From the NCBI GenBank assembly GCA_020848545.1, contig JADLHZ010000085.1, forward strand, positions 62,001-126,000: a DNA stretch of 64,000 nucleotides, given 5' to 3'. Shown here in pieces: positions 61,626-63,525 of this stretch; the first letter of the stretch is position 1; every line of letters begins with the position of its first letter. A program made the translations under genes and the position numbers. The notes under the pieces were generated by a model that saw only the letters and a list, made by a program, of their open reading frames with translations, ran no database searches and was not told where the DNA came from. The DNA comes from Deltaproteobacteria bacterium (GTDB lineage Bacteria > Myxococcota > JADLHZ01).

Positions 61626-62717
61626 CTAGAACGTGCGGTCACATCGACGCAAGCTGGCGTTGTAGGTGTTGTCGCTGAAGGTGCCCGGCCTGTCCTTGTA
61701 GTCGCAGGCGACGATCTTCGACGGCGGGTTCGGAATCTGCGGCTTCGGGGTCGTGCGACACCTCGGCATCGGATCGGCCTCGATGCGGCACTGCCCGGGC
61801 GTGCTCGTCTCGACGAAGGTGTTCGTCCAGCAGCTCGCCATCGGTGCGTTCGGGCTCGCGCAATCGGCGTCGTTTGCGCAGGGCTTGCTGCAGTAAGCCG
61901 AGAGGTTGTCGAGTCCCGCGGTGCACGAAAGCCCCCCGACGCCGCCGGTCGCGAGGGACTGATCGCACTCGCCGGCGCGCTGGCAGCACTCGTAGAGCCC
62001 GAGCTTTCCGGAGACGCAGGCGCCGCCGCCGTCCGCGGTCTTCGTGCACTTGCCGGCTTCGGCGCGGTTGCTCGTCGTCGCGCAGTCCGAGTCCTGCGTG
62101 CAGCGCTTCGGCACGTAGTAGCAGAACAGCCGCGGCCGACAGTAGTTCGTGAGGAACTGCCCCGAGCCATTCGTCTTGGCGCCGCTGTAGAGCCGCGTGT
62201 CGTGCGACGACAGCGACGGAAAGCAACAGAGGTTGTCGAAGTCGCGCTTGCAGTCGCCGACGCAGCCGATCGGCGCTTTGCCCCAGCACTCAGAGTCGGC
62301 GCTGCATTCGGTGGTGCACGACTTGACGTTGCCGAGATCGGGATCGCCGGTGAAGACGGCGTTACAGAGCGGCGCGCCTTCGCCGCAGGCGCCGAATTGA
62401 TCGGTCGCGGTCGAGACGCCGTTGTTGTTCGGCGAGGCGCACAGGTTGCCGAGCGAGGTGTCGTTGCTCGGGCTCTTCACCGTCTTCGGGATCTCGCTGT
62501 TGTCGAGGCAGGCGTAGATGTTTTCGTTCACCGGCGCGCAGATCGTCGTGCCGGCGCACTCTATCGGCGTCGAGCACATCTTGCGGCAACGGTTGAGCGT
62601 CGGGACGCACATGTGCTTTTCGGGGCACTCGGAGGTCGTCGAGCAGGTGGTGTTGCAGGCTTCCGAGAGGAACACGGTCGCGAGCACGGCGGCGTACAGC
62701 GCGAAGCGAATGAACAT
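61626..62717 (-). CDS. Cys-rich exported lipoprotein-like protein
   Basis: 363 residues. The signal (MFIRFALYAAVLATVFLSEAC) ends with a lipobox-like SEAC. The mature part has more than 35 Cys in short loops (CSTTSECPEKHMCVPTLNRC, CTQDSDCATTSNRAEAGKC, CANDADCASP), a repeated C-x(3-5)-DSDCA or similar pattern seen in many myxobacterial surface proteins. Likely disulfide-bonded and secreted. The two structured elements lie just upstream of its start, in its probable 5' region. Confidence 0.75.
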   Translation of the reverse strand: MFIRFALYAAVLATVFLSEACNTTCSTTSECPEKHMCVPTLNRCRKMCSTPIECAGTTICAPVNENIYACLDNSEIPKTVKSPSNDTSLGNLCASPNNNGVSTATDQFGACGEGAPLCNAVFTGDPDLGNVKSCTTECSADSECWGKAPIGCVGDCKRDFDNLCCFPSLSSHDTRLYSGAKTNGSGQFLTNYCRPRLFCYYVPKRCTQDSDCATTSNRAEAGKCTKTADGGGACVSGKLGLYECCQRAGECDQSLATGGVGGLSCTAGLDNLSAYCSKPCANDADCASPNAPMASCWTNTFVETSTPGQCRIEADPMPRCRTTPKPQIPNPPSKIVACDYKDRPGTFSDNTYNASLRRCDRTF

Positions 62718-62737: not shown

Positions 62738-62850
62738 TTCGCGGGTTCGAAAAGGCGGCAGAGGGTGGAGGGACCGGGTGACTCGTAGGAGTTGGAGGGT
62801 GCCGTGCGAATCTATGTGTGGTCTCTCTGCCGCTTTTTCGAACCCGCGAA
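62738..62850. ncRNA. Structured element A: long stem-loop with conserved loop (novel)
   Basis: The left arm 62738-62763 is complementary to the right arm 62825-62850 over 26 bp with one G-T wobble. The 61-base interior includes GACCGGGTGACTCGT and GGAGGGTGCCGTGCGAATC, shared with element B. Could act as RNA on either strand, or as a folded DNA strand. Placed 21 bp upstream of the Cys-rich gene start, it may be part of its 5' leader. Only structure and repetition are seen; the class is unknown. Confidence 0.55.
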
Positions 62851-62867
62851 GTGTGGGGGGCCGAACT

Positions 62868-62963
62868 GGACGAAAAAAACGGTAGAGGGTGGAGGACGAC
62901 CGGGTGACTCGTGGAGGGTGCCGTGCGAATCTATGTATGGTCTCTCTACCGTTTTTTTCGTCC
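62868..62963. ncRNA. Structured element B: second copy with different but complementary arms (novel)
   Basis: The left arm 62868-62887 (ending ACGGTAGAG) pairs perfectly with the right arm 62944-62963 (starting CTCTACCGT) over 20 bp. The interior matches element A except for a 7-base gap, a 2-base insertion and a substitution. Arms differ from A by compensating changes: a C-G pair in A (62759/62829) is T-A here (62883/62948), and GG/CT becomes AAA/TTT. Confidence 0.55.
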
Positions 62964-63020
62964 CGCTCAGCGCCGCGCGCCCCGCGTTACAACTACAGTA
63001 TCGGTAAGCACTGTCAGGTG

Positions 63021-63049: not shown

Positions 63050-63072
63050 AAAGGATCACCGCCGCCTCCGCT

Positions 63073-63133
63073 CCCCGGTCCCTTTTCGACGCCATTCCTT
63101 CCCCGGTCCCTTTTCGCCGAAAAGGGACCGGGG
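63073..63133. repeat. GGTCCC-type palindromic repeat downstream of queD
   Basis: CCCCGGTCCCTTTTCG occurs at 63073-63088 and again at 63101-63116, followed by its exact reverse complement at 63118-63133 after a 1-base centre. The last two form a 33-bp palindrome, a strong hairpin or cruciform, in the spot where queD transcription should end. The GGTCCC/GGGACC core is shared with the palindromes at 2721-2780. The whole gap 62718-63168 holds only these elements, the A/B pair and no gene. Confidence 0.65.
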
Positions 63134-63168
63134 AGGAATTCGGAGGAATTCGGGGGATTCGGGGCGGT

Positions 63169-63525
63169 TTAGGCGGTGTAGACCGCGGCGGAGGTGCACG
63201 TTTCGGAGACGAGGATCTTCGAGAGCGACGGCAGGGTCGGCTTCAGGCGCGCCCAGATCCACTCGGCGAGCACTTCGCTCGTCGGGTTCTCGAGGCCGGC
63301 GATCTCGTTCAAATAGTAGTGATCGAGCTTCAGCCGCAGCGGCTCGAAGGCGTCTTTGATCTCGGCGAAGTCCATGACCCACCCGAGCTTCGGGTCGAGC
63401 GGGCCACGCACCCAAATCTGCACCCGGTATGAGTGCCCGTGCAGGCGCTGGCACTTGTGATCCAGCGGCACGTTCGGCAGCCGATGCGCCGCTTCGAAGG
63501 TGAACTCTTTGTAGATCTCGGTCAC
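63169..63525 (-). CDS. queD: 6-carboxytetrahydropterin synthase QueD
   Basis: 118 residues, GTG start with GGGAGG about six bases before, directly after the upstream stop. Zinc ligands H14, H29 and H31 and the catalytic Cys25 in CQRLHGH (Cx3HGH) are present, then VMDFAEIKDAF and the later Glu-rich stretch. QueD converts 7,8-dihydroneopterin triphosphate to 6-carboxytetrahydropterin in queuosine synthesis; some relatives act in pterin salvage. The neighbouring FolB-like gene also acts on dihydroneopterin-type compounds. Confidence 0.93.
   Translation of the reverse strand: MTEIYKEFTFEAAHRLPNVPLDHKCQRLHGHSYRVQIWVRGPLDPKLGWVMDFAEIKDAFEPLRLKLDHYYLNEIAGLENPTSEVLAEWIWARLKPTLPSLSKILVSETCTSAAVYTA

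Follow-up and report, generated by a model that had tools for sequence, protein, structure and literature searches.

Two adjoining homologous hairpins before a predicted lipoprotein gene in a myxococcotal genome: candidate leader-RNA elements

The window analysed in this study is a stretch of 64,000 nucleotides from a Deltaproteobacteria bacterium (Myxococcota; contig JADLHZ010000085.1). Towards its end, two hairpin elements, A and B, sit in a 451-bp gap that runs from a queD-like gene to the gene for a Cys-rich predicted lipoprotein. The features of this locus, in window coordinates, are as follows.

61626..62717, minus strand: Cys-rich predicted lipoprotein gene, an orphan, downstream of A and B
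62738..62850, minus strand: hairpin element A, 113 nt, with a 26-pair stem and a 61-nt interior
62764..62824, no strand assigned: interior of A, near-identical to that of B, with a single substitution, 7 inserted nt and a gap of 2 nt
62860..62971, minus strand: hairpin element B, 112 nt in its minus-strand extent, with a 56-nt interior
62888..62943, no strand assigned: interior of B, between its inner arms
63169..63525, minus strand: queD-like gene of the 6-pyruvoyl tetrahydropterin synthase family (PF01242, E 1.4e-37), upstream of A and B and in the same direction

Both flanking genes are on the minus strand, and the end of A is 20 nt from the ATG of the lipoprotein gene. Therefore, a leader RNA fits this layout best, in agreement with the earlier note, which had proposed a 5' leader RNA of the Cys-rich gene as one candidate. 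A signal peptide and a lipobox are predicted for the lipoprotein from its sequence. It has no Pfam match, no homologue among the genomes of the phylum, and none in a GTDB scan, which detects close relatives only; thus, no homologues were found through which the leader could be aligned. A sigma-70-like promoter was not found, and no Shine-Dalgarno sequence is evident before the lipoprotein ATG.

A and B are paralogous hairpins with long stems, near-identical interiors, and arms that differ in a paired fashion. The arms of A (62738-62763 and 62825-62850) are 26 nt each with one non-Watson-Crick pair, while the inner arms of B (62868-62887 and 62944-62963) are 20 nt each and pair perfectly. On the minus strand, the stem of B continues beyond these 20 pairs with one mismatch (G-A) and then seven outer pairs, formed by GCTGAGC with GTTCGGC, two of which are G-U; pairing as good as this outer extension arises in about 0.9% of draws of random 8-mers from the window. 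The coordinates, arms, and shared interior reported previously were all reproduced on re-analysis, and the span 62868-62963 given for B holds for its inner stem but falls short of the minus-strand extent, which reaches 62860-62971. A spacer of 9 nt separates the two elements. Folded together they have a z-score of -7.5, which none of 200 dinucleotide shuffles equalled, and folded singly as RNA they range from -4.4 to -8.5. Across a surveyed 1.2 Mb of this genome, stems in the same length class that enclose loops of 20-150 nt turn up at roughly one per 60 kb. Therefore, long hairpins are by themselves common enough, and it is the side-by-side position of two homologous ones that is unusual.

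When the full minus-strand stems of A and B are compared, both partners differ at five pairs, two single-pair indels have their counterpart on the opposite side, two pairs are altered on one side via G-U, and sixteen pairs are unchanged, with one unpaired position in each copy and two additional outer pairs in B. In an explicit alignment of the inner arms, five of the six differences are matched on the opposite arm (three double substitutions and two single-pair indels); the sixth is an A-T pair in B against G-T in A, as read on the plus strand. Independent arm changes placed at random 200,000 times never produced this many compensated positions. The alignments thus bear out the matched changes described before (C-G to T-A, and GG/CT to AAA/TTT) and add further ones. 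The earlier note had also argued that chance copying of a repeat would not preserve pairing and that the structure therefore seems selected; this step does not follow, since the paired changes come from two paralogues only, and template switching between arms would give the same pattern neutrally.

The minus strand is weakly favoured as the transcribed strand. The outer stem of B has its two wobble pairs on this strand only; these are stem differences from A (T-A to T-G and G-C to G-T) that keep pairing. A and B share one fold topology on the minus strand (z -8.5 and -7.3), whereas on the plus strand their interiors fold differently and the extended B has a z-score of -4.4, compared with -7.3 on the minus strand. 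Against the minus assignment stands one inner pair in A, which reads A-C there but G-T on the plus strand.

Over the 54 positions aligned, the interiors of A and B show a single substitution; in addition, A carries 7 inserted nt and B carries 2. Substitutions are fewer in the interior (1/54) than in the arms (7/38), with a Fisher p of 0.008 that overestimates the contrast because both arms are treated as independent although they are not. On the minus strand, the helices GACC/GGTC and GATTCG/CGAGTC are available to the B interior as they are to that of A, though no better than in shuffles. By themselves, the interiors fold no better than shuffled sequence, whichever strand is taken (z -0.95 to +0.20). 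Therefore, the conservation of the interior is one of sequence, or of recency, rather than of a demonstrated fold. A coding explanation was rejected because the 7- and 2-nt indels make the reading frames of A and B differ. No clear homology was found by alignment in the flanks of A and B.

BLAST and a covariance model identified A and B as the sole copies in their own genome, and the two methods found no copy in 194 further genomes from this phylum. An absence of further copies in related genomes, which the earlier note named as speaking against a selected structure, is thus what was found; it weighs little, since the nearest relatives searched share only the phylum and their lack of copies says little on closer kin. 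Weak matches in two of these genomes, G044 and G007, are short segments resembling coding sequence. With a 19-base two-part core as the pattern, an exact scan of GTDB, in which each of 84,980 species was represented by one genome, returned 35 matches, none of them with the arms or the hairpin context, and exact scans of IMG/VR with four core patterns gave none. A and B match no plasmid; a 24-nt match between an arm of A and two Stenotrophomonas phages (E 0.02) was judged to be chance. The whole window has no match in Rfam 15 at the gathering threshold, and over A and B there are sub-threshold matches only, to miRNA-type hairpins; this accords with the previous statement that no described family is known to match. 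A CsrA sponge or CsrA-binding sRNA was rejected since no CsrA match was found in the genome while controls were positive. A recombination hairpin of the Xer/dif type obtained no support either: no site within three mismatches of the proteobacterial dif consensus was found in the genome, so there is nothing to compare A and B with. In attC sites, the ends are conserved and the middle is variable, which is the reverse of A and B.

The explanation that we tentatively prefer, at somewhat less than an even chance, is that A and B are lineage-specific tandem leader-RNA hairpins, encoded on the minus strand, that control the lipoprotein mRNA. As tandem paralogues of one hairpin, they would be transcribed within the leader, or gap, from queD to the lipoprotein gene. 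Their long stems, maintained through base pairing, would display an almost invariant apical segment of 56-61 nt, and the apical sequence would be the recognised part. Their likely task would be to control or insulate the lipoprotein mRNA at leader level, through read-through, stability, or ribosome access. The homology of the two hairpins, the paired changes in their arms, the conserved interior, and the gene layout are observed, while transcription from the minus strand, selection for pairing, and a regulatory role are inferred. It is unlikely, yet conceivable, that A and B belong to a novel tandem leader-RNA class whose freely varying long stems present a near-invariant 56-61 nt apex, recognised by sequence and not by fold.

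The main rival, less probable but able to account for the pairing nearly as well given only two known copies, is neutral quasi-palindrome correction: an imperfect hairpin was duplicated locally, and template switching during replication then copied arm onto arm in different directions in A and B, leaving stems that are near-perfect yet unlike, with no need for selection on RNA. That such switching within imperfect palindromes yields compensated differences in the absence of selection has been argued for RNA genes (PMC8794818). Published work documents the mechanism for the evolution of RNA hairpins (PMC8794818) and for imperfect inverted repeats (PMC7202029, PMC8604942), including work in E. 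coli on quasi-palindromes (PMC7202029). A and B resemble such template-switched quasi-palindromes in their long near-perfect arms and in the compensated way in which the copies differ. One or two events per copy account for all of the inner arm differences together, the near-identity of the interiors would then mean just a recent duplication, and in the outer arms one side is alike in A and B (CCCGC, right side, plus strand) and the other is unlike. However, a recent tandem duplication should leave homology in the flanks or spacer, and none is clear, unless exactly the hairpin and nothing more was copied. The unpaired positions are also unexpected from perfect copying alone, and so are the two wobble-keeping changes in the outer B stem on the minus strand; since perfect template copying would leave no wobble pairs, these changes speak for pairing in RNA. 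With so few sequences, the comparison does not decide between RNA selection and template switching, and for this reason kept pairing by itself does not imply selection.

Two other explanations appear improbable, each to a similar degree. A and B could be ordinary terminators or insulators of the bidirectional intrinsic type that close off queD before the lipoprotein promoter. As in such terminators, an A-tract and a T-tract flank a GC-bearing stem: tracts of this kind pair within the stems (in B, AAAAAAACGGTAGAG ... CTCTACCGTTTTTTT), B has T7 right after a GC-bearing 8-bp stem on both strands, and A has T5 on the plus strand. A terminator function is therefore possible, though the conservation of the interior would be left unexplained, and loops of 56-61 nt far exceed the short loops of intrinsic terminators. 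Moreover, on the minus strand A has no more than T4, a repeat hairpin at 63071-63135 already follows queD, and a terminator predicted at 62818-62833 uses a different short stem. Alternatively, A and B could each be a copy of a small mobile element with hairpin ends, or of a REP-like one. Their homology ends near the hairpin ends, other dispersed hairpin families are present in the genome with one adjoining (63065-63135), and there are four Y1 transposase matches. Intergenic hairpins that form a pair and share their genome with Y1 transposases and dispersed palindromes recall REP/BIME and RAYT-associated palindromes. What lowers the odds of such an origin is that the copies are few and adjacent and that their ends are the variable part: there are two copies only, and a conserved interior with variable arms is the reverse of REP/BIME and MITEs. 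For the same reasons, the earlier dismissal of a simple MITE stands. The flanks show no target-site duplication, and beyond short runs A and B share nothing with the dispersed families.

As candidate leader-RNA hairpins, A and B are comparable to tandem cis-regulatory leader RNAs of the riboswitch type, in which two homologous structured elements stand in series before one gene and variable stems with paired changes surround a conserved inner sequence. They differ from these in having no Rfam match or homologue in other genomes, no visible expression platform or ligand-linked gene, and an interior fold that is no better than chance. If A and B are transcribed and kept in close relatives, they would add a hitherto undescribed tandem leader RNA, in a lineage that is poorly sampled. 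They also offer a clear small case of the question whether compensated stem changes come from RNA selection or from template-switch mutation, as perfect paired changes and wobble-keeping changes are both present in a single pair of hairpins.

Other palindromic elements were observed in the same genome. The segment at 63065-63135 belongs to a dispersed intergenic repeat made of CGAAAAGGGACCGGGGA units in direct and inverted tandem, often placed directly after stop codons; this family has 185 BLAST matches in the genome, and 43 exact units in 20 clusters were counted in 1.2 Mb. A second palindrome family, AAAAGGTCCC(A/T)GGGACCTTTT, is represented in the window by a tandem pair at 2722-2780 and has 17 units in 1.2 Mb of the genome. 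The four Y1-transposase matches (PF01797; L047-L050) are a possible source of palindromic repeats. Further long-stem hairpins with loops of 47-67 nt, whose interiors are unrelated to those of A and B, are located at L080:8401-8507, L092:6241-6329, L107:8777-8886, and L123:3374-3476.
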